Shown: in pieces, positions 4,915 through 21,556 of the stretch
How the letters are laid out: each line of letters opens with the position of its first letter
Position numbering within the stretch: position 1 is the first letter of the stretch
Virus record (IMG/VR): IMGVR_UViG_3300037119_000529
Span: 1 to 22,848 of that record
DNA length: 22,848 bases
Strand: one strand, 5' to 3'
Origin: a virus
Notes under the pieces: generated by a model
Told to the model about the DNA's origin: nothing
Seen by the model: only the letters and a program-made list of their open reading frames with translations
Database searches by the model: none
Made by a program: the position numbers and the translations under genes

Positions 4915-5700
4915 CTAGGAGACGGTGACCGCCGTGGGCGTGCCAGCGGTACCGGTTGCGGGCCAGGTGGCCGTGATGTTGGCCGAGCCCGCCGCGATGC
5001 CCTTCACGAGACCGTTCGCGTCCACGGTTGCCTTGGTGACATCCGAGGAGGTCCAGGTGAACGCACCGGGGTAGCCGTTGGTGGTGACCTGGCGACCCGT
5101 GAGGTATGCGATCATGGGCTTCTTGGTGCCGACGGAGAGGGTGGCACCGCCGTTCATCGACTGGGTGATCGTGACCGCCGTGTTGACGTTCGCGTTGACC
5201 CAGACATCACCCTGAGGCTGGAAGGTGATGGTGTACTTGAAGTTGACCTCGCCGACGTTGACATCCGACCAGCCGTCCGAGATGACCTTGTACACGTGCC
5301 AGAAGTCACCCGCGGTAGCGGTGCGAGTTCCAGCAGGAGTGATCAGGCCGTCCGCCTTCAGGAGAATGTAGCCCAGCGTCCACGGCTGGTCCAGCGCCTC
5401 GAAGGTCTGGCTGTTGGCGTCCGACACGTTGTTGTACGCGCGCGGGTAGAAGAACGAGATGGTTCCGCCGAACTGCGCGAAGCCACGGGTCTGGGTGTTG
5501 CCCTGATCCGCGATGCCCGGGTCGGAAATCTGGTTCGATGCCTGGTTGCCGAACGAGAAGTCCGCCCACGCCACCGAGTCCGTCACGTCGAGCGTGGCGT
5601 TGACTTCCGCGACCGTGGGCTTCTTCCAGTTCGCGAAAGCGCCGGGGAGTGCCCAGCGGACGACGATGTTGCCCGCCGAGGATACCTTAGTGTTTACCAT
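4915..5700 (-). CDS. major tail protein with C-terminal Ig-like (BIG2) domain
   Basis: This 261-residue protein probably forms the tail tube. The N-terminal domain (about 1-170) has the beta-rich, aromatic texture of tube proteins. The C-terminal part (about 175-258) is a bacterial Ig-like group 2 domain, seen in SSDVTKATVDANGLVKGIAAGS, written here as SSDVTKATVDANG then LVKGIAAGSANITATW. Such domains often decorate tails and may bind cell-surface sugars. The start ATG at 5700 has AAGGA eight bases upstream. The N-terminus aligns with the neighbouring 182-residue protein, so the two are paralogues. Of the two, this longer one is likelier to be the annotated major tail protein. Confidence 0.85.
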   Translation of the reverse strand: MVNTKVSSAGNIVVRWALPGAFANWKKPTVAEVNATLDVTDSVAWADFSFGNQASNQISDPGIADQGNTQTRGFAQFGGTISFFYPRAYNNVSDANSQTFEALDQPWTLGYILLKADGLITPAGTRTATAGDFWHVYKVISDGWSDVNVGEVNFKYTITFQPQGDVWVNANVNTAVTITQSMNGGATLSVGTKKPMIAYLTGRQVTTNGYPGAFTWTSSDVTKATVDANGLVKGIAAGSANITATWPATGTAGTPTAVTVS

Positions 5701-5711
5701 GTCTCAGTTCC

Positions 5712-6260
5712 TTACGAAGCCAGCTGGTAGTTCCACACGATGGGCCCGCCAGCGTAGAGGAAGTTCTGTACGAATCGACCCGAGGTGGTCTGCTCCGGGG
5801 CCTCGGCGGGGTAGTCCGTGTTGAAGAGTGCCATCTTGATCTTCTGACCGGTGGCGAATGCTGCGTCCTGCGACGAGTTGGGACCGGTGCGCGAGATGAC
5901 CCAGTAGGGCACGTCCGGGAACGCCAGCCACGCCCACGCCTTGTTGTACAGCGAGGTCAGGTCCACCGTGGTGCCCGATCCGCCCGTGTTCGCTTCCTTC
6001 AGCACCGACCATGCGGCGGTGGGGGACTTGAACGTCGGGGTGGACTCGTTGCCGATGGAGCAGAAGGTCAGCGTGTCGTCGGTCTCCGAGTCGCCGAGGG
6101 TGAGGCTGGTGCCGTCCTCGGTGAGAGCGCAGGAGAACAGCGTGACCAGCGTGGCCGAGTTGAGTTCCGCGGAGGTGGGGGCGAGGGGGTTCGCGAACGC
6201 ATCTGCGTAGGCGAGGGCCCACGTCTGATTCGGGCGAGTGAGTCGCGTGGAGTAAGCCAT
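5712..6260 (-). CDS. tail tube-like protein, paralogue of the next gene
   Basis: This 182-residue protein starts MAYSTRLTRPNQTWALAYAD. Its segment WALAYADAFANPLAPTSAEL lines up with WALPGAFANWKKPTVAEV of the downstream major tail protein (shared W-A-L, A-F-A-N, P-T, A-E, N, A-T-L-V-T). It lacks the Ig-like domain. It could be a second tube subunit, a tube initiator, or the tube proper with the larger copy as a decorated form. The start ATG shares a base with the upstream stop (TAATG), and an 11-base gap separates it from the next gene. Confidence 0.75.
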   Translation of the reverse strand: MAYSTRLTRPNQTWALAYADAFANPLAPTSAELNSATLVTLFSCALTEDGTSLTLGDSETDDTLTFCSIGNESTPTFKSPTAAWSVLKEANTGGSGTTVDLTSLYNKAWAWLAFPDVPYWVISRTGPNSSQDAAFATGQKIKMALFNTDYPAEAPEQTTSGRFVQNFLYAGGPIVWNYQLAS

Positions 6261-6481
6261 TACTTCTTCACGTCCTTAGCTTCCTCGACGGCCTGCTCTG
6301 CGGCTTCGCGCTCAGCTACCTTGTCGTCGGTGGTGGGGTGTCCCAGCACCTCGGGCTTCAGGGCTGCGTCCACAGGGAGGACCTTGTACATGTGTCCCAG
6401 GGGGCCACCAAGGTGTCGCTCTTCGAGTTCGACGCGTACGCCCGAAACCTTGTGCTCAACGAGCACCATCTTTTCGGCCAT
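6260..6481 (-). CDS. small hypothetical protein in tail module
   Basis: This 73-residue protein starts MAEKMVLVEHKVSGVRVELE and ends in an acidic/alanine helix (REAAEQAVEEAKDVKK). I do not recognise a family. It lies between the tail terminator and tail tube genes, a slot often holding small tail or head-tail proteins of unknown role. AGGAAGG lies about 11 bases before the ATG, and an extended -10 promoter about 40 bases upstream would give it a short leader. It is coupled to the next gene by a TAATG overlap. A reading such as FSGVRVEL in many actinophages would fit, but no function is claimed. Confidence 0.75.
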   Translation of the reverse strand: MAEKMVLVEHKVSGVRVELEERHLGGPLGHMYKVLPVDAALKPEVLGHPTTDDKVAEREAAEQAVEEAKDVKK

Positions 6482-6520
6482 GCAAATAGACCCTTCCTAG
6501 GGGTTTGAATTGGTGACTTC

Positions 6521-6529
6521 AGTATACCA
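6521..6529 (-). promoter_or_regulatory. extended -10 promoter of tail tube operon
   Basis: TGG-TATACT (five of six matches to TATAAT, plus the TG extension) lies in the gap 6482-6563, upstream of the small protein and tail tube genes. No good -35 is seen. Confidence 0.5.
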
Positions 6530-6563
6530 TGGCGCGCGGCGGCGAATCCTACCACACTTGGTT

Positions 6564-7016
6564 CTACTCGTCAACCACCAAATTCACAGGCATGCGGAAC
6601 GAAACGTGAGCGATGAACCGACGCGGTTTGGAGGAACTGTCACCGGCCCGCACGAACACCGTGCCACCGCCGTCCTTCATCTCGCCGCTATCGATGGTCG
6701 GCTTGAAGCCGTTGAACACGTCGGTCAGACCGCCCGGGCCGTAGGCGAGGTTGATGGCGTCACCAGGGGTGGCACCCACCGCGAGCATGTCCACGAGGGT
6801 GTAGCGGCCATCGTGACGCGCACCGCCGAACGACTCGTCGCCAGCCGTGGGGTTGGGCGAGTTGAACCGCAGCACCACATACTCGTCCATCACGCCGTTG
6901 GTCGTGGGCTCATCGAGGGCGTCGGGGAAGTCGATTTCGAACACCGAGTCCGTGCCGTACTCAGCTACCGCCTTGGCCTTGATCGCAGCCTGGACGGGGG
7001 TCAGGTCCATGGTCAC
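6564..7016 (-). CDS. probable tail terminator protein
   Basis: This protein of about 150 residues (GTG at 7016, or 148 from ATG at 7010) lies after the HK97-gp10-like neck protein and before the tail tube, the usual place of the tail terminator that caps the tube and joins it to the head. The sequence (DLTPVQAAIKAKAVAEYGTD, LRFNSPNPTAGD, RYTLVDMLAVG) has the small mixed alpha/beta look of such proteins. No diagnostic motif is visible. The GTG start overlaps the end of the upstream gene. Function is inferred from position. Confidence 0.7.
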   Translation of the reverse strand: MTMDLTPVQAAIKAKAVAEYGTDSVFEIDFPDALDEPTTNGVMDEYVVLRFNSPNPTAGDESFGGARHDGRYTLVDMLAVGATPGDAINLAYGPGGLTDVFNGFKPTIDSGEMKDGGGTVFVRAGDSSSKPRRFIAHVSFRMPVNLVVDE

Positions 7017-17120: not shown

Positions 17121-17123
17121 GTG

Positions 17124-17190
17124 CGCCCCTGCGAGGAGTCGAACCCCGATTGCTCCGGCCTAGAAAACCTGCATGATCCATTCCAAGGGC
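17124..17190 (-). tRNA. tRNA-like gene, probably tRNA-Arg(UCU), reduced D-arm
   Basis: The acceptor GCCCTTG/CAGGGGC pairs fully (with G-U) and the T-arm CGGGG-TTCGACT-CCTCG has one mismatch. The best anticodon arm is CAGGT-TTTCTAG-GCCGG (four pairs plus one mismatch), giving UCU for AGA. The D-arm is only ATG-GAT-CAT, and the whole gene is about 67 bases. It may be degraded. No CCA is encoded. Confidence 0.55.
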
Positions 17191-17191
17191 T

Positions 17192-17264
17192 TGGAAGCGA
17201 TACCGAGAGTCGAACTCGGACTCAGTGGGTTGCAATCACTGTCTGCCTGCCCGGTCATACCGCC
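17192..17264 (-). tRNA. tRNA-Cys(GCA)
   Basis: The acceptor is GGCGGTA/TATCGCT, the T-arm CCGAG-TTCGACT-CTCGG is perfect, and the anticodon loop is TTGCAAC. U73, the cysteine identity base, is followed by an encoded CCA. The anticodon stem has an A31-C39 mismatch. Confidence 0.82.
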
Positions 17265-17265
17265 G

Positions 17266-17339
17266 TACACGACCAGGGAATCGAACCCTGCTCTAGACAC
17301 GTTATCAGCGTGCCTCTCACAACCAGTGAGATATCGTGC
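17266..17339 (-). tRNA. tRNA-Ile(GAU)
   Basis: The acceptor is GCACGAT/GTCGTGT, the D-stem CTCA/TGAG, and the anticodon arm GCACG-CTGATAA-CGTGT. The T-arm CAGGG-TTCGATT-CCCTG is perfect. A73 is present and no CCA is encoded. Confidence 0.9.
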
Positions 17340-17342
17340 TCA

Positions 17343-17416
17343 GTACCCCCCGAGAATTCCGACATCTCGACCCGCCGATTAAAAGTCGGCTGCTCTGCCT
17401 CTGAGCTAGAGGGGTA
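17343..17416 (-). tRNA. tRNA-Lys(UUU)
   Basis: The acceptor is TACCCCT/GGGGGTA, the D-arm GCTC/GAGC, and the anticodon arm GCCGA-CTTTTAA-TCGGC is perfect. The T-arm is unusual (GAGATGTCGGAATTCTC) and resembles that of tRNA-Lys(CUU) at 18151, so the two are probably duplicates. Confidence 0.85.
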
Positions 17417-17423
17417 TGGGACC

Positions 17424-17486
17424 GATGGGCGCTGGTGGATTCCAGTCGTTTGAGCCTTGCCAGCCTTCTCTAGGCTAAGCCCCATC
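17424..17486 (-). ncRNA. tRNA-slot element, possible degenerate tRNA
   Basis: This 63-base stretch is closed by GATGGG/CCCATC, holds a D-arm-like AGCC-TAGAGAA-GGCT and ends with CTGG-AATCCA-CCAG. No acceptable anticodon arm is found. It fills exactly one tRNA slot between Lys and Gln genes. Confidence 0.3.
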
Positions 17487-17493
17487 AGTCTCG

Positions 17494-17564
17494 CACCAAG
17501 GGCTGGAATCGAACCAACCGCACACCGAGTTCAGAGCCCGGCTGACCGCCTTGATCACCTTGGT
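17494..17564 (-). tRNA. tRNA-Gln(CUG)
   Basis: The acceptor ACCAAGG/CCTTGGT is perfect, the D-arm GATC-AAGGC-GGTC is short, the anticodon arm is CCGGG-CTCTGAA-CTCGG and the T-arm GTTGG-TTCGATT-CCAGC. G73 is present. Confidence 0.9.
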
Positions 17565-17569
17565 AAGTG

Positions 17570-17626
17570 GCTAGAGTCCTTCCCCCGCTTTGCATTGTCG
17601 CGCTATGGCGGCGGGGCTTCTCTAGC
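17570..17626 (-). ncRNA. 57-base structured tRNA-slot element
   Basis: GCTAGAG pairs perfectly with CTCTAGC at the two ends. Inside, CCCCGC pairs with GCGGGG around a loop with a small hairpin CGC-CATA-GCG. It has no T-arm or anticodon arm. It sits between tRNA-Gln and tRNA-Arg with almost no spacing. Confidence 0.35.
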
Positions 17627-17627
17627 C

Positions 17628-17703
17628 TGGTCCCCCTAGAGAGATTCGAACTCCCGGCAACGTAGGTTCGTAGCCTACTGCTCTTCCGCTGAGCTATAGA
17701 GGG
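17628..17703 (-). tRNA. tRNA-Arg(ACG)
   Basis: The acceptor is CCCTCTA/TAGGGGG, the D-arm GCTC/GAGC, the anticodon arm GTAGG-CTACGAA-CCTAC is perfect and the T-arm is GGGAG-TTCGAAT-CTCTC. A73 and CCA are encoded. A34 is normally edited to inosine by the host. Confidence 0.94.
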
Positions 17704-17713
17704 TTGTACTGCG

Positions 17714-17786
17714 TGCCTCTGGCGGGATTCGAACCCACTGCCTCCGTCATACCAAGACGGCATTCATCCATTTGAACCTCAAAGGC
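17714..17786 (-). tRNA. tRNA-Thr(GGU)
   Basis: The acceptor is GCCTTTG/CAGAGGC, the anticodon arm CCGTC-TTGGTAT-GACGG and the T-arm GTGGG-TTCGAAT-CCCGC. A73 is present and no CCA is encoded. Confidence 0.92.
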
Positions 17787-17788
17787 GG

Positions 17789-17861
17789 GGCTCCGTGCCG
17801 GGGTCGAACCGGCGCTTCCTGATTACGAAACAGGCGTGCTGGCCATTGTCACTAACAGAGC
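17789..17861 (-). tRNA. tRNA-Thr(CGU)
   Basis: The acceptor is GCTCTGT/ACGGAGC, the D-stem GTG/CAC and the T-arm GCCGG-TTCGACC-CCGGC is perfect. The anticodon arm CCTGT-TTCGTAA-TCAGG has one U-U pair. Confidence 0.9.
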
Positions 17862-17862
17862 G

Positions 17863-17929
17863 TAGCTCGTCAGGGGATCGAACCCTGCTTAGGAGTGTGT
17901 AGGACTCCGGTGTTCCCAGAACACAAGCC
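17863..17929 (-). tRNA. tRNA-Val(UAC) with C33 and odd D-arm
   Basis: The acceptor is GGCTTGT/ACGAGCT, the T-arm CAGGG-TTCGATC-CCCTG is perfect and the anticodon stem GGAGT/ACTCC is perfect around CCTACAC. The nearly universal U33 is C. The D region can fold as GTGTTC-TGG-GAACAC, which is not a normal D-arm. At 67 bases it is short. Confidence 0.72.
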
Positions 17930-17930
17930 G

Positions 17931-18004
17931 TGGGGCAACAGGGATTCGAACCCTGCCTTTCACTTTGGAAGAGTGATGTGCTATGCCGCTAACACTACTG
18001 CCCT
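17931..18004 (-). tRNA. tRNA-Gly(UCC)
   Basis: The anticodon arm TCACT-CTTCCAA-AGTGA is perfect, the T-arm CAGGG-TTCGAAT-CCCTG is perfect and the D-stem is GTG/CAC. The acceptor AGGGCAG/TTGCCCC has an A1-C72 mismatch. Confidence 0.9.
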
Positions 18005-18012
18005 ATATGATC

Positions 18013-18067
18013 CGCAGGCAAGGACGAAGGCCTTTGTTCGAGGCCGAGCGCATTGCTGACCCCTGCG
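18013..18067 (-). ncRNA. 55-base structured tRNA-slot element
   Basis: CGCAGG pairs with CCTGCG at the ends, and an anticodon-like arm GGCCT-CGAACAA-AGGCC lies inside, but there is no T-arm. It could be a tRNA remnant (a loop reading AAC would be valine, with G33). Confidence 0.3.
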
Positions 18068-18072
18068 TATCG

Positions 18073-18145
18073 TGCGGTAAGGGAGATTCGAACTCCCGCT
18101 AAGACGTTGGCAACGTCCCGTGCTAACCACTAACACTACTACCAC
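18073..18145 (-). tRNA. tRNA-Gly(GCC)
   Basis: The acceptor is GTGGTAG/TTACCGC, the anticodon arm GGACG-TTGCCAA-CGTCT and the T-arm GGGAG-TTCGAAT-CTCCC. The D-stem is GTG/CAC, as in the neighbouring Gly(UCC) gene. Confidence 0.92.
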
Positions 18146-18150
18146 ATGCG

Positions 18151-18222
18151 TGCTCCCAGAGAATTTCGAAATCTCGACCCGAGCCTTAAGAGGGCCCTGC
18201 TCTGCCTCTGAGCTACAGGAGC
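18151..18222 (-). tRNA. tRNA-Lys(CUU)
   Basis: The acceptor is GCTCCTG/TGGGAGC, the D-arm GCTC/GAGC and the anticodon arm GGGCC-CTCTTAA-GGCTC. The T-arm GAGAT-TTCGAAA-TTCTC has U-U in place of the usual G53-C61 pair. Confidence 0.88.
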
Positions 18223-18234
18223 GTATGTACTGCG

Positions 18235-18317
18235 CGGAGCCCGGACTACTCGAAAGCCATCCCAGCGGAACGATCCGGCTAGCAACCGGTCCCGGCACCC
18301 TGGCCGGTTCAGACTCC
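18235..18317 (-). tRNA. tRNA-Ser(GCU), class II
   Basis: The acceptor is GGAGTCT/GGGCTCC with G73. The anticodon loop TTGCTAG lies between CCGG and CCGG. The D-arm is CCGG/CCGG. A long variable region (about 15 bases) marks class II, as expected for serine. The T-loop is TTCGAGT. Confidence 0.85.
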
Positions 18318-18343
18318 ATGTTTCACACTGTTGAGTTGTGCTG

Positions 18344-18428
18344 CGGAAGAAGGACGAATCGAACGCCTGTGCCTGAGACACCCCTGGGTTTCGAAGCCAG
18401 TGCCCTAGCCATTAGAGCCTCATCTTCC
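18344..18428 (-). tRNA. tRNA-Ser(CGA), class II
   Basis: The acceptor is GGAAGAT/TTCTTCC with G73. The anticodon arm CTGGC-TTCGAAA-CCCAG has one C-C. The variable arm GTG-TCTCAGG-CAC gives class II shape. Confidence 0.87.
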
Positions 18429-18434
18429 AAAGAG

Positions 18435-18466
18435 AAATGGCCCCGGGTTTTCACCTAGGGCCACTT
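18435..18466 (-). terminator. terminator upstream of tRNA-Ser(CGA)
   Basis: AAGTGGCCC pairs with GGGCCATTT (one G-U), followed by CTCTTT. It would end transcription from the jelly-roll gene and the micro-ORF unit before the tRNAs. Confidence 0.65.
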
Positions 18467-18481
18467 CCTTGCTGATCTGTT

Positions 18482-18547
18482 TCAGCGTAGCCCGATAGCG
18501 GTGACCGACTGGCCCCCGCGCTTGGACGTGCTGATGATCATGAACAT
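18482..18547 (-). CDS. micro-ORF (21 residues) in promoter-terminator unit
   Basis: The peptide is MFMIISTSKRGGQSVTAIGL plus R. The ATG is seven bases after TGC-TACGAT, so a leaderless transcript is predicted, and a terminator follows 15 bases after the stop. There is no known family. The RNA rather than the peptide may be functional. Confidence 0.35.
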   Translation of the reverse strand: MFMIISTSKRGGQSVTAIGLR

Positions 18548-18554
18548 AGAACCT

Positions 18555-18563
18555 ATCGTAGCA
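18555..18563 (-). promoter_or_regulatory. extended -10 promoter of micro-ORF unit
   Basis: TGC-TACGAT followed by AG. The eight bases TACGATAG recur at the second micro-ORF unit (21412-21419). Confidence 0.45.
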
Positions 18564-18575
18564 TACTTCCCGGGA

Positions 18576-19049
18576 CTAGGGAAGGTCTCCGATGCGGGTC
18601 ACGTTGATGCGGCAGGCGAAGTTCGCGTACACGTTGCCAGAGACCGTCTGGTCCTGGATCACGAGCGTGGATCCGTTGCCGTAGCCGACGAGGCGGATCA
18701 CGTCGTTGGTGTACAGTTCCACGGTCTGCGCGTTGCCGCCGATGGAGGCACCCACCTGGACGATGCCGCCGAGTGCGCGGAGGTCGAGGCCGGTGATGCC
18801 CGTGGACTTGTTGCGGGTGAAGCCGACGATGCCGGAAGCTGCATTGTCCAGGATGAGGGTCCAGTCCAGCAGGTACAGGCCGTCCTCGGGGATGCGGATG
18901 CCGTCGCCCTGAACGTAGTCAGCGAAGACGAACGCGCCAGCCTGTCCGGTGACGTTCCAAGCGCCAGTGGCGTGGAGCGTGCCGTAGGAGCCATTGGGGG
19001 CGGAGAGAGAGTTGATGGTGCCGCGCGAGAGGCGCATTTGCGTAGTCAA
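18576..19049 (-). CDS. jelly-roll (C1q-like) virion or surface protein
   Basis: This protein of about 157 residues looks like a single beta-sandwich: GTINSLSAPNGSYGTLHATG, FVFADYVQGDGIRIPEDGLY, LLDWTLILDNAASGIVGFTR, VELYTNDVIRLVGYGNG and a final FACRINVTRIGDLP. The Y-L-L-D-W-T and D-V-I-R-L pattern resembles C1q/TNF-like domains of phage structural proteins, so it may be a small fibre or decoration protein. I prefer the TTG at 19049, with GGAG five bases upstream; a TTG at 19079 also opens the frame. A -10 (TACAAT) lies at 19086-19091. It is isolated inside the tRNA array, so it is likely a late insert. Confidence 0.7.
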   Translation of the reverse strand: MTTQMRLSRGTINSLSAPNGSYGTLHATGAWNVTGQAGAFVFADYVQGDGIRIPEDGLYLLDWTLILDNAASGIVGFTRNKSTGITGLDLRALGGIVQVGASIGGNAQTVELYTNDVIRLVGYGNGSTLVIQDQTVSGNVYANFACRINVTRIGDLP

Positions 19050-19085
19050 GAGAACTCCATCGTTGGTGGGTTGAACCAACCCTCC

Positions 19086-19091
19086 ATTGTA
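19086..19091 (-). promoter_or_regulatory. candidate -10 (TACAAT) for jelly-roll gene
   Basis: TACAAT matches five of six, and the start site would give a leader of about 30 bases carrying GATGGAG before the TTG start. Confidence 0.4.
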
Positions 19092-19097
19092 CTCCCG

Positions 19098-19421
19098 CTA
19101 TCTGGGATCGAACTGATCGGTGACCACGCGCTCGTCGGTGTGGCCCTTGAATACCACGCGGCTTGCGAAGCCAGCGTTCCGGTAAGCCCTAGCGAACTTC
19201 ACAGCGCGCTTGCGGGGCAGTTCGCGGCTGATATAGAACCAGCCATCCTCAGCCCAGTAGGGCCATTCTGTGACCGTCCGAGAGGTGGCGCGACCTTCGA
19301 CCTCGACGTAGTTAGGGTGGAGCCCCCGCTGATTCTTGCTGCGAGGCTTGGGGAGGTGCCAGTCGTTCGCCGCGATGGGCTTGAACACCTGGACGAAGTG
19401 TCCGGTCCTGCTGTTCGGCAT
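19098..19421 (-). CDS. hypothetical protein inside tRNA array
   Basis: This is a 107-residue basic protein starting MPNSRTGHFVQVFKPIAAND. GAGGAGGG six bases upstream makes ATG 19421 the clear start; a longer frame would run into tRNA-Leu(CAG). It contains ENWPYWAED-like aromatic residues (TEWPYWAEDGWFYISRELPR) and an arginine/lysine-rich helix (RKRAVKFARAYRNAGFASR). I do not recognise a family; the basic helix could bind nucleic acid. It lies 19 bases after a tRNA gene, so it probably shares the tRNA transcript and would be freed by tRNA processing. Confidence 0.75.
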   Translation of the reverse strand: MPNSRTGHFVQVFKPIAANDWHLPKPRSKNQRGLHPNYVEVEGRATSRTVTEWPYWAEDGWFYISRELPRKRAVKFARAYRNAGFASRVVFKGHTDERVVTDQFDPR

Positions 19422-19440
19422 GATGCCCTCCTCGCTATCG

Positions 19441-19514
19441 TGGCCCGTGTGGGATTCGAACCCACAGCATCCCACGGTCTGAGCATGGGTGGTCTACCGG
19501 TTGCCTAACTGGCC
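19441..19514 (-). tRNA. tRNA-Leu(CAG) with short variable loop
   Basis: The anticodon arm is CCATG-CTCAGAC-CGTGG, the T-arm GTGGG-TTCGAAT-CCCAC and A73 is present. The acceptor GGCCAGT/ACGGGCC has one mismatch. The variable region is only about ATGCT, whereas bacterial tRNA-Leu normally has a long arm. Confidence 0.85.
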
Positions 19515-19515
19515 G

Positions 19516-19589
19516 TACTCCGAGTGGGATTCGAACCCACAGCATACGACGCACTCAACATCGTTGGTCTACCGATTGCCTACCGAAGC
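19516..19589 (-). tRNA. tRNA-Leu(GAG) with short variable loop
   Basis: The acceptor is GCTTCGG/TCGGAGT (G-U rich), the anticodon arm CGATG-TTGAGTG-CGTCG and the T-arm GTGGG-TTCGAAT-CCCAC. A73 is present. It shares its D-arm and ATGCT variable loop with its two neighbours. Confidence 0.85.
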
Positions 19590-19590
19590 G

Positions 19591-19664
19591 TGACGATCCT
19601 GGGATTCGAACCCAGAGCATGCGGGGGTTTGAATCCCGCTGGTCTACCGATTGCCTAGACCGCC
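19591..19664 (-). tRNA. tRNA-Leu(CAA) with short variable loop
   Basis: The acceptor is GGCGGTC/GATCGTC, the anticodon arm GCGGGA-TTCAAAC-CCCCGC (one A-C) and the T-arm CTGGG-TTCGAAT-CCCAG. A73 is present and the variable loop is ATGCT. Confidence 0.85.
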
Positions 19665-19668
19665 AAGG

Positions 19669-19714
19669 TGGCAGTTTTGCTCGGACCTGGGGTGAGTACC
19701 GAACGGATCTGCCA
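19669..19714 (-). ncRNA. 46-base structured spacer element
   Basis: TGGCAG pairs with CTGCCA at the ends; inside are CCG-TT-CGG and further short pairings. No tRNA arms are seen. It lies between the Leu and Phe tRNA genes. Confidence 0.25.
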
Positions 19715-19721
19715 ACCGCCG

Positions 19722-19795
19722 TGGCTCCCGGGAGACTCGCACTCCACCCCTCCGGCTTTTCAAACCAGCGCTCCGACTATTAGAGCTTGGGATCC
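19722..19795 (-). tRNA. tRNA-Phe(GAA)
   Basis: The acceptor GGATCCC/GGGAGCC has one mismatch. The D-arm is GCTC/GAGC and the anticodon arm CTGGT-TTGAAAA-GCCGG. The T-loop is TGCGAGT instead of TTCGANT. A73 is present. Confidence 0.87.
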
Positions 19796-19796
19796 G

Positions 19797-19868
19797 TGGC
19801 GCTGGAAGGAATCGAACCTTCTCACGAACGGTTTACAGCCGTAGCCCAGTGAGCCAACTGTCAACGCC
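19797..19868 (-). tRNA. tRNA-Tyr(GUA) with short variable loop
   Basis: The acceptor is GGCGTTG/CAGCGCC, the anticodon loop CTGTAAA lies between ACGG and CCGT, and the T-arm GAAGG-TTCGATT-CCTTC is perfect. Bacterial tRNA-Tyr is normally class II; here the variable region is about six bases. Confidence 0.87.
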
Positions 19869-19869
19869 G

Positions 19870-19948
19870 TGACTAGTACCGGAATCGAACCGGTGTCCTT
19901 TACTGAGGGTGAAAATCTCAGTGCCCCTGCCAGCAGAGCAAACTAGCC
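19870..19948 (-). tRNA. tRNA-Glu(UUC)
   Basis: The acceptor is GGCTAGT/ACTAGTC, the anticodon loop TTTTCAC lies in the CTGAG/CTCAG stem region, and the T-arm ACCGG-TTCGATT-CCGGT is perfect. The variable region is slightly long (eight bases). Confidence 0.88.
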
Positions 19949-20242
19949 AGATGTGAGAGGGCCCTAGAACTGACCCTCTATAGCAGACTTTCGCGCGGCT
20001 TATGTATTACCGGCTTCTCCACGATGTCCCCACCGTATCTGCCATGCCCGGTTGTTAGGACAACCACCCCTTACGACGTGAACTACTCCACAAGATTCGA
20101 TTCGCGAAAGGATGGCCGTCCATCCGCTGCACTACTACTTCGTGAACACCCTTGGCCTTTCGAGCTTCCAGGTGCCTGGATTGGCTTGCGCCTCCAGGAT
20201 TAGGGCACTTTCGCCCACGTCGGGAAGAGAACTTTCGATTTG
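19949..20242 (-). ncRNA. hairpin-rich non-coding region between tRNAs
   Basis: No convincing gene is seen. Minus-strand hairpins include CCTGGA-GGC-GCAA-GCC-AA-TCCAGG (GNRA loop), GGTTGT-CCTA-ACAACC, GGATGG-ACGG-CCATCC and AGAGGG paired with CCCTCT at 19955-19979. A 58-base unit at 20105-20162 is closed by CGAAAGG/CCTTTCG. Frames through it look non-coding. Confidence 0.4.
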
Positions 20243-20314
20243 AATGCAATCAAGGATTTGAACCTTGACACACGGTTTACAGAACCGTTGCTCTGCCAAT
20301 TGAGCTAAATGCCG
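20243..20314 (-). tRNA. tRNA-like gene, Thr(UGU) or Tyr-like, weak acceptor
   Basis: The D-arm GCTC/GAGC, the anticodon stem ACGGT/ACCGT and the T-arm CAAGG-TTCAAAT-CCTTG are good. The seven-base loop TCTGTAA reads UGU (Thr) but with C33. The sequence also equals tRNA-Tyr's arm with two inserted T residues. The acceptor CGGCATT/ATTGCAT pairs poorly. It may be decaying. Confidence 0.6.
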
Positions 20315-20746
20315 TGACGATGGAAGTGCTCTTCCAGAAGTTCCGAACCCTTTGGAGGCCCAGAATGCTTCACTCCCACATAGCTTTCGGTGTCACCCTA
20401 ATCGCACTCTCCGCCGCTACTCCCGACCCGCCGACCGGTTTGACGCCTTCATGGAACCCGCCCTAGGCCGACAAGCCTCGGACTCAGTTCCTTCCTCGTG
20501 GACATCCAATCTCGTTTCCAGATCCACCCCCTGCCGGGAGTGCGTACATAGCCTGTCGGCCCTACGCTTCAGATCGTTGACTCGAAAAGATGGCATCCAG
20601 GTCTTTGGCTCCTGAACGCTCAACCACTCGGTTTGCATGAGATACCATCGCTGGCGGCTGGAAGTCATCCAACCTTTCACCAGGTCGCCCTGGCTTATCC
20701 GTCATGCCGGTTTGGTCATCCCTTGCGGAACTCCCTGTCGTCACCG
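20315..20746 (-). ncRNA. candidate structured ncRNA(s) with own promoter
   Basis: This stretch of about 430 bases has no convincing protein gene, and a promoter sits just upstream. Two helices are unlikely by chance. One is a nine-pair stem at 20641-20649 with 20589-20597 (GATGGTATC/GATGCCATC, with a G-U valid only on the minus strand), enclosing AACC-GAGT-GGTT and CAGG/CCTG as a three-way junction followed by TTTT. The other is a ten-pair stem at 20554-20564 with 20464-20473 (TGTCGGCCTA and its partner). A seven-pair GGTTGGA-TGACT-TCCAGCC hairpin and a final GGAAG-AGCA-CTTCC hairpin add to the structure. There is no known family. Confidence 0.5.
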
Positions 20747-20776
20747 ACTCTAACACGAGGTCAGAGCCGATGTCAA
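20747..20776 (-). promoter_or_regulatory. promoter with -35 TTGACA and extended -10
   Basis: TTGACA (20776-20771) lies 18 bases before TAGAGT (20752-20747), which is preceded by TGT, giving a full -35 and a TG extension. It is the best sigma-70-type promoter on the coding strand in the window. It lies just after tRNA-Glu(CUC) and drives the structured RNA region. Confidence 0.6.
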
Positions 20777-20797
20777 CGCGATTTCCTGAGAAACCGC

Positions 20798-20871
20798 TGG
20801 TAGCCCATGGGGGTTACGATCCCCCGACAAGTGACTGAGAATCACTCGTGTTGCCATTACACCAATGGGCC
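20798..20871 (-). tRNA. tRNA-Glu(CUC)
   Basis: The acceptor is GGCCCAT/ATGGGCT with A73 and an encoded CCA. The anticodon arm is AGTGA-TTCTCAG-TCACT. The T-stem GGGGG/CCCCC is perfect, with loop ATCGTAA. A relic of a related tRNA lies at 4836-4896. Confidence 0.9.
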
Positions 20872-20876
20872 ATGCG

Positions 20877-20949
20877 CGACCATACGGGGTATCGATCCCC
20901 GACCTCTTGCTCGACAGGCAAGCGTGCACGTCCTGTACACCATACGGCC
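20877..20949 (-). tRNA. tRNA-Asp(GUC)
   Basis: The acceptor is GGCCGTA/TATGGTC, the anticodon arm CTTGC-CTGTCGA-GCAAG is perfect, and the T-stem CGGGG/CCCCG has loop ATCGATA. G73 is the aspartate identity base. Confidence 0.9.
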
Positions 20950-20950
20950 T

Positions 20951-21025
20951 TGGGGTGGCGTACGGGGATCCAACCCGCGACTCCAGGTCCACAACCTGGT
21001 GTGTTAGCACTACACTAACGCTACC
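20951..21025 (-). tRNA. tRNA-His(GUG)
   Basis: The anticodon arm CCAGG-TTGTGGA-CCTGG is perfect. The extra G at position -1 pairs with C73, the histidine hallmark, and CCA is encoded. The acceptor has one A3-C70 mismatch. The T-loop is TTGGATC. Confidence 0.92.
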
Positions 21026-21026
21026 G

Positions 21027-21098
21027 TCCGGACTAGAGGATTCGAACCTCTGACTCCATGGTCCCTAACCAAGTCGCTTACCACTCGCGTAAATCCGG
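21027..21098 (-). tRNA. tRNA-Pro(AGG)
   Basis: The acceptor is CCGGATT/AGTCCGG and the T-arm AGAGG-TTCGAAT-CCTCT is perfect. The anticodon arm CTTGG-TTAGGGA-CCATG has one mismatch. Confidence 0.9.
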
Positions 21099-21101
21099 TC
21101 A

Positions 21102-21129
21102 GCATACTATTTTTCTTCACGCCGTATGC
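21102..21129 (-). other. hairpin between tRNA-fMet and tRNA-Pro
   Basis: GCATAC pairs with GTATGC around a 16-base A-rich loop (GGCGTGAAGAAAAATA). It may be a processing signal or a promoter (TAGTAT). Confidence 0.35.
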
Positions 21130-21141
21130 CAGGGTCGCTCG

Positions 21142-21209
21142 TTGCGGAGGAGAGATTCGAACTCTCGACGTGCCGGGTTATGAGCCCAGAGCCCCACCAG
21201 GGCCCCGCG
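21142..21209 (-). tRNA. initiator tRNA-fMet(CAU), short D-arm
   Basis: The acceptor CGCGGGG/CTCCGCA has the C1-A72 mismatch that marks bacterial initiator tRNAs, and the anticodon stem CTGGG-CTCATAA-CCCGG has the three G-C pairs needed for P-site entry. The T-arm GAGAG-TTCGAAT-CTCTC is perfect and A73 is present. The D-arm is only CCC-TGGT-GGGG, so the gene is about 68 bases. Confidence 0.85.
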
Positions 21210-21222
21210 TCGTTGTCTTGCG

Positions 21223-21294
21223 TGGATCGTGTGGGACTCGAACCCACCTGCCTGCCAGCTTGCAAGGCTAGCGCGCTTACCCTGAGCACAACCC
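21223..21294 (-). tRNA. tRNA-Ala(UGC)
   Basis: The acceptor GGGTTGT/ACGATCC includes the G3-U70 pair that specifies alanine. The anticodon arm is CTAGC-CTTGCAA-GCTGG and the T-arm GTGGG-TTCGAGT-CCCAC. A73 is present. Confidence 0.93.
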
Positions 21295-21304
21295 GTGAAC
21301 AGCA

Positions 21305-21336
21305 GAACCCCCGACCAGTTTCCTAGTCGGGGGTTC
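21305..21336 (-). terminator. terminator with GAAA tetraloop
   Basis: A 14-pair stem (GAACCCCCGACTAG with its complement, one G-U) is capped by GAAA. There is no long T tract. It follows the second micro-ORF. Confidence 0.7.
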
Positions 21337-21353
21337 GCAAATGGGTGCGCCGA

Positions 21354-21407
21354 CTAGGCTCCGGGGTCAAGCTCCGGGGCGAAGTGCAGTGCATACATCG
21401 TGGTCAT
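21354..21407 (-). CDS. micro-ORF (17 residues) in promoter-terminator unit
   Basis: The peptide is MTTMYALHFAPELDPGA. The ATG is six bases after TGG-TACGAT, which fits a leaderless transcript, and the terminator at 21305-21336 follows. A longer reading from 21425 would start upstream of the promoter. There is no known family. Confidence 0.35.
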   Translation of the reverse strand: MTTMYALHFAPELDPGA

Positions 21408-21413
21408 GGGACT

Positions 21414-21422
21414 ATCGTACCA
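21414..21422 (-). promoter_or_regulatory. extended -10 promoter of second micro-ORF unit
   Basis: TGG-TACGAT followed by AG. It lies just after the tRNA-Asn terminator. Confidence 0.45.
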
Positions 21423-21443
21423 CATGTTCGGCGGGCAAAGGAA

Positions 21444-21475
21444 AAGACCCCCACCGGATTTCCAGAAGGGGCCTT
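21444..21475 (-). terminator. terminator after tRNA-Asn
   Basis: AAGGCCCC pairs with GGGGTCTT (one G-U) and is followed by TTTTCCTTT. It is the only terminator here with a good T-rich tail. Confidence 0.75.
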
Positions 21476-21483
21476 CGTCCACG

Positions 21484-21556
21484 CTCTTCCACCAGGATTC
21501 GAACCTAGACCACTTGATTAACAGTCAAGCACGCTCGCCGTTTACGCCATAGAAGA
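21484..21556 (-). tRNA. tRNA-Asn(GUU)
   Basis: The acceptor is TCTTCTA/TGGAAGA, the anticodon arm CTTGA-CTGTTAA-TCAAG is perfect and the T-arm is CTAGG-TTCGAAT-CCTGG. G73 fits asparagine. Confidence 0.92.

Follow-up and report, generated by a model that had tools for sequence, protein, structure and literature searches.

An initiator-type tRNA(CAU) with a compact D-region in a phage tRNA array

The tRNA array and its surroundings

The 22.8-kb stretch of DNA analyzed here (the window) comes from an uncultured virus catalogued in IMG/VR and has a G+C content of 62%. Its minus strand carries tailed-phage genes for a tape measure protein, a tail assembly chaperone, major tail proteins, a capsid protein, a head-maturation protease, a portal protein, the large terminase and a glutaredoxin-like protein. 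Upstream of these genes, at about 17.1–21.6 kb, lies a tRNA array that covers most amino acids. With 21 to about 28 tRNAs in 4.4 kb beside the terminase, portal, capsid protease and tape-measure genes, it is a phage tRNA array. The features relevant here are the following:

17123..21556, minus strand: tRNA array, with 21 tRNAs (ARAGORN default), 24 (Rfam tRNA model) or about 25–28 (relaxed)
19958..20380, minus strand: GOLLD RNA (RF02032), 186.8 bits
20244-20313, minus strand: tRNA-Thr(tgt), inserted in the GOLLD RNA linker (relaxed ARAGORN)
21026..21098, minus strand: tRNA-Pro(agg), the 3' (downstream) neighbor (default ARAGORN), also the neighbor in phage Yappy
21142..21209, minus strand: initiator-type tRNA(CAU) of 68 nt (sequence, relaxed ARAGORN, initiator and elongator models)
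21222..21294, minus strand: tRNA-Ala(tgc) with a 16-nt D-region, the 5' (upstream) neighbor, also the neighbor in phage Yappy

The nearest cultured relative of the array that was found belongs to Curtobacterium phage Yappy, which has 23 tRNAs in much the same order; by this likeness, the host is probably an actinobacterium. When close relatives were sought with the terminase, three viral contigs matched. Two are near-identical but do not extend far enough, and the third, at 62%, stops short of the tRNA. Searches with the two proteins flanking the tRNA and with a degenerate pattern of the tRNA itself returned none.

Other parts of the window have unusual features of their own. Three tRNA-Leu genes (cag, gag and caa; 19440-19664, minus strand) are 75 nt long and do not have the long variable arm normal in bacterial tRNA-Leu, and the tRNA-Leu genes in the arrays of mycobacteriophage Rey (L004) and of loci L112 and L178 are of similar length. 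A gap of about 1 kb in the array (18501-19430) contains minus-strand ORFs of no known family. Two adjacent minus-strand genes (4915-5700 and 5712-6260) both match phrog_2491, a major tail protein family, and the first also matches Ig-like domains.

A CAU tRNA with initiator hallmarks

The gene runs on the minus strand, and from 21209 down to 21142 its sequence, 5' to 3', is CGCGGGG-CCCTGGTGGGGCT-CTGGG-CTCATAA-CCCGG-CACGTC-GAGAGTTCGAATCTCTC-CTCCGCA-A, with T-arm segments GAGAG TTCGAAT CTCTC and no encoded 3' CCA. The preliminary description, which named no strand, had noted a C1-A72 mismatch and three G-C pairs next to a CAU loop, and both are found at exactly these positions. At 1:72, a C1xA72 mismatch takes the place of a strong pair, and three consecutive G:C pairs (G29-31:C39-41) stand beside the anticodon loop CTCATAA. 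The acceptor stem contains G2:C71, C3:G70 and G4:C69, which are the pairs used for formylation, and the discriminator is A73, a MetRS element.

Default ARAGORN misses the gene, and a relaxed threshold calls it tRNA-Met(cat). The Rfam tRNA model gives 26.3 bits, below its cut-off of 29 bits. An initiator-specific model places the gene well above chance (E 2.2e-10 over 1 kb). The minimum-energy fold, in which acceptor pairs 6-7 are broken, is no better than that of shuffled sequences (z -0.47).

Initiator and elongator identity can be compared using covariance models. Searches over 45 mostly actinobacterial genomes yielded CAU tRNA loci comprising 9 distinct initiators and 26 distinct elongators, from which an initiator model (R1) and an elongator-CAU model (R2) were built. 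As controls, the tRNA(fMet) of phage T5 and the tRNA-Met of Bixzunavirus lean toward the initiator model, and the tRNA-Met of Rey and the Ile2 tRNA of T5 lean toward the elongator model, as they should. The window tRNA scores 44.3 bits with R1 and 37.9 bits with R2. This comparison, which had been proposed beforehand as a check, favors the initiator, with a modest margin of 6.4 bits. Identity over the acceptor and anticodon stems is 88% with host initiators and 51% with host CAU elongators; when only the D-region and variable loop are excluded, the values are 79% and 61%. By its sequence, the tRNA is thus of the initiator type, as first described.

That the tRNA is instead an elongator tRNA(Met), or a lysidine-modified tRNA(Ile), with a mere likeness to initiators is quite improbable. 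Such an identity would fit the fact that neither default nor relaxed ARAGORN finds a second CAU tRNA in the window, since a tRNA set lacking an elongator Met would be incomplete, and the array of Rey does hold an elongator-like tRNA-Met. However, the contig is a fragment and an elongator Met gene could lie outside it, the initiator model outscores the elongator model, and the combination of C1xA72 with G29-31:C39-41 occurs in none of the 26 sampled host CAU elongators. On the model scores and this combination, elongator identity is disfavored.

The compact D-arm

The D-region of the tRNA is much reduced, and two further candidates in the array share this property:

21190..21202, minus strand: compact D-region CCCTGGTGGGGCT of 13 nt (positions 8-26), predicted pairing only
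17862..17929, minus strand: tRNA-Val(tac) candidate with the compact D-hairpin GTTC TGG GAAC followed by ACC
17123..17190, minus strand: tRNA-Arg(tct) candidate with a 12-nt D-region

The shortened D-arm of the preliminary description is thus borne out, at 13 nt versus 20 nt in actinobacterial initiators. In CCCTGGTGGGGCT, a mini-hairpin with GG in its loop is predicted directly after the acceptor stem, with no U8/R9 linker, and 2 nt separate it from the anticodon stem. In the minimum-energy fold, pairing of the mini-hairpin comes at the expense of acceptor pairs 6-7. Thermodynamic support for it was not obtained, and it is not statistically secure, as about 7% of shuffled sequences form an equal stem whose loop contains GG. 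The tRNA has none of the features of an initiator D-arm (U8, a purine at position 9, A11:U24 and a four-pair D-stem), so the claim made here is limited to a tRNA that would work like an initiator with a non-canonical D-arm.

Such short D-regions are rare among phage CAU tRNAs. The anticodon arm TGGGCTCATAACCC occurs in at least 119 stretches of IMG/VR, and 96 distinct CAU tRNAs were parsed from the matches listed. Only three of these 96 have D-regions of at most 14 nt, among them L114, which looks like a partial copy. Directed scans added further compact cases on viral contigs (L127, L157 and L147) and on genome contigs (L193 and L236). Pattern matches on genome contigs with D-regions below 16 nt were not counted as support; truncated copies and host genes containing runs of N are among them. 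In the clearest cases (L112, L127, L157 and L193), the acceptor stem leads immediately into a hairpin of 3-5 pairs whose loop contains GG, and then comes a linker of 2-3 nt. The CAU tRNA of L236 also has the mini-hairpin right after the acceptor stem, and all five, with linkers of 2-3 nt and D-regions of 14-15 nt, resemble the compact form of the window tRNA. L236 differs in that its loop does not have GG and its tRNA has a C1-G72 pair, unlike the C1xA72 of the window tRNA. The compact hairpins of the other viral and mobile arrays also differ in sequence from that of the window tRNA. L236 itself (4986-6726, plus strand) is a 14-tRNA array in the genome of Labedaea rhizosphaerae with three compact D-arm tRNAs (Trp, Ala and Met).

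The short D-arm is therefore rarer than a non-standard 1:72 pair among phage CAU tRNAs, yet it recurs in other mobile arrays. Because it occurs in other isotypes (Ala and Trp in L236, Val and Arg(tct) in the window), it is not tied to initiation. The compact D-arm is a shrinkage common to other tRNAs of such arrays and not a device that biases initiation. The function of the Val candidate is doubtful, as its position 33 appears to be C. Tentatively, and with rather low probability, mobile arrays of actinobacterial phages and elements may contain a recurrent, functional compact D-arm form. It would serve several isotypes, the initiator among them, and might allow escape from nucleases that recognize the tRNA elbow. 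In this form, the 8-9 linker would be gone and a hairpin of 3-5 pairs, often with GG in the loop, would sit on the acceptor stem. In mycobacteria, array tRNAs are reported to diverge from their chromosomal counterparts in places that include the D-arm (PMC12803027).

Leaderless starts and initiation

Leaderless mRNAs are common in actinobacteria, where the ordinary host initiator reads them. In the window, the motif TANNNT lies 4-9 nt upstream of 5 of 13 manually chosen minus-strand gene starts (17102, 16832, 14637, 12938 and 4809), compared with 2.3% of positions in general, and leaderless-type promoters are therefore likely real. The earlier suggestion that many leaderless starts fit a phage-supplied initiator is likely right about the starts themselves, but nothing ties them to the tRNA. 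The related proposal, that the tRNA or its short D-arm could bias initiation, is not supported: the anticodon loop is identical to that of host initiators, and the short D-arm is present in elongator tRNAs of this and other arrays as well. As the anticodon stem also differs from that of host initiators at only one position (42), start-codon choice should not change. That a phage supplies its own initiator is in itself unsurprising, since this is known from T5 and others.

Proposed role and alternative explanations

The tRNA is probably a phage-encoded initiator tRNA(fMet) of the actinobacterial host type, likely captured, that serves as a spare initiator in a near-complete phage tRNA set. Its hallmarks, its place in the array and its similarity to host initiators are read directly from the DNA, and from these its capture, expression, charging, formylation and use can be proposed. 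The gene would most likely have been taken from a host-type initiator gene of an actinobacterium. Host MetRS would be expected to charge the tRNA (CAU, A73), and host Fmt to formylate it (no 1:72 pair; G2:C71, C3:G70, G4:C69). The three G:C pairs of the anticodon stem would place it in the P site. Such a spare may sustain the initiation of phage translation in late infection, once host tRNAs are degraded or cut by tRNA-targeting defenses. Defenses that cut tRNAs are documented (e.g., PMC12851939, PMC13096335). Escape from a toxin by mutation of the anticodon loop was rejected for this tRNA: its unchanged loop, CTCATAA, is the same as in the sampled host initiators and argues against this route.

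This initiator role is favored by the acceptor strand CGCGGGG and the CTGGG-CTCATAA-CCC segment, both of which also occur in host initiators, and by synteny with Yappy, whose tRNA-Met also leans initiator. Against it stand the Rfam score below the cut-off, the missing U8, purine 9 and A11:U24, and a fold like that of shuffles. These same observations are what a decaying former initiator would present, with its D-arm lost and its nonfunctional gene tolerated in a large redundant array. Odd members of the array, such as the Val candidate with C33 and Arg(tct), point in the same direction. Decay is the main rival explanation, although an unlikely one: the anticodon arm, T-arm and acceptor stem are intact and all formylation pairs are kept, whereas loss would be expected in those arms as well as in the D-arm. 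In addition, a similar compact D-arm occurs with intact arms in unrelated arrays.

The preserved formylation pairs also argue against a decoy or structural RNA outside translation (such as a sponge for a toxin that cuts tRNAs, or GOLLD-particle cargo), which would not need them. A GOLLD RNA with an embedded tRNA does lie about 0.8 kb from the CAU tRNA, GOLLD cages have been proposed to hold phage tRNAs (PMC12286853), and toxins are known to target initiator tRNA (VapC, as cited in PMC10264068), but such a role is very improbable. An attachment site, in which an integrating phage carries a piece of a host initiator gene, is scarcely credible. Copies of the 3' half seem to occur among the listed IMG/VR matches (e.g., L114, L117 and L118), but the window tRNA sits inside a tRNA array and its T-arm and 3' half diverge from those of host initiators (GAGAG/CTCTC versus GCAGG/CCTGT). 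This origin was rejected because the 3' half is unlike host initiators.

If the phage initiator is functional, the usual D-arm is dispensable for a bacterial-type initiator tRNA. It would also mean that replacement initiators are often supplied by phages, making translation initiation itself a possible target of attack and counter-attack in infection.

Comparison with known initiator tRNAs

A phage-encoded initiator tRNA is not new; the class is known, and the D-arm of the window tRNA is a variant. Among the matches listed for the shared anticodon stem, 71 of the 96 distinct IMG/VR CAU tRNAs have a non-standard 1:72 pair and 48 of 96 have A11:U24. A non-standard 1:72 pair was found in 7 of 133 control tRNAs of the arrays examined, counted on ARAGORN predictions. 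Thus, the 1:72 and anticodon-stem hallmarks go together in phages, and initiator-type tRNAs are frequent there. Many of them are annotated simply as tRNA-Met or escape tRNA finders run with default settings. Nocardia phage NTR1 (MF477236; L006 1483-1556, plus strand) contains an unannotated initiator-type tRNA with C1xC72 and CCGGG-CTCATAA-CCCGG.

Annotated examples include the tRNA(fMet) of phage T5 (AY543070 32428-32505), the initiator of which was described in 1975, as cited in PMC4810235, which also places initiator tRNA in cyanophages. A tRNA-fMet has also been listed for an Erwinia jumbo phage (PMC7760394) and a Sinorhizobium prophage (PMC12429752). Like the window tRNA, T5 tRNA(fMet) is encoded in a phage tRNA array and has a non-standard 1:72 pair (U-U) and a CTCATAA loop. 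It differs in its 20-nt D-region with A11:U24 kept and in its CUAGU/GCUAG anticodon stem, which does not have the three G:C pairs. The tRNA-Met of Bixzunavirus mycobacteriophages (e.g., Erdmann, KX721256) likewise sits in the tRNA array of an actinobacterial phage and has A1xC72 and CCGGG-CTCATAA-CCCGG, but its D-region is the full 20 nt with A11:U24, and it is annotated only as tRNA-Met. In Yappy (PQ868972), the tRNA-Met occupies the same syntenic place between tRNA-Pro and tRNA-Ala and leans toward the initiator model (64.2 versus 58.4). Its 1:72 pair is U1-A72, however, and it has U11-A24, a GGG shifted by one position (28-30) and a normal D-region. Actinobacterial host initiators share with the window tRNA the CGCGGGG acceptor strand, CTGGG-CTCATAA-CCC, A73 and a C1 opposite A, U or C, and differ from it in a 20-nt D-region with A11:U24 and in another T-arm.
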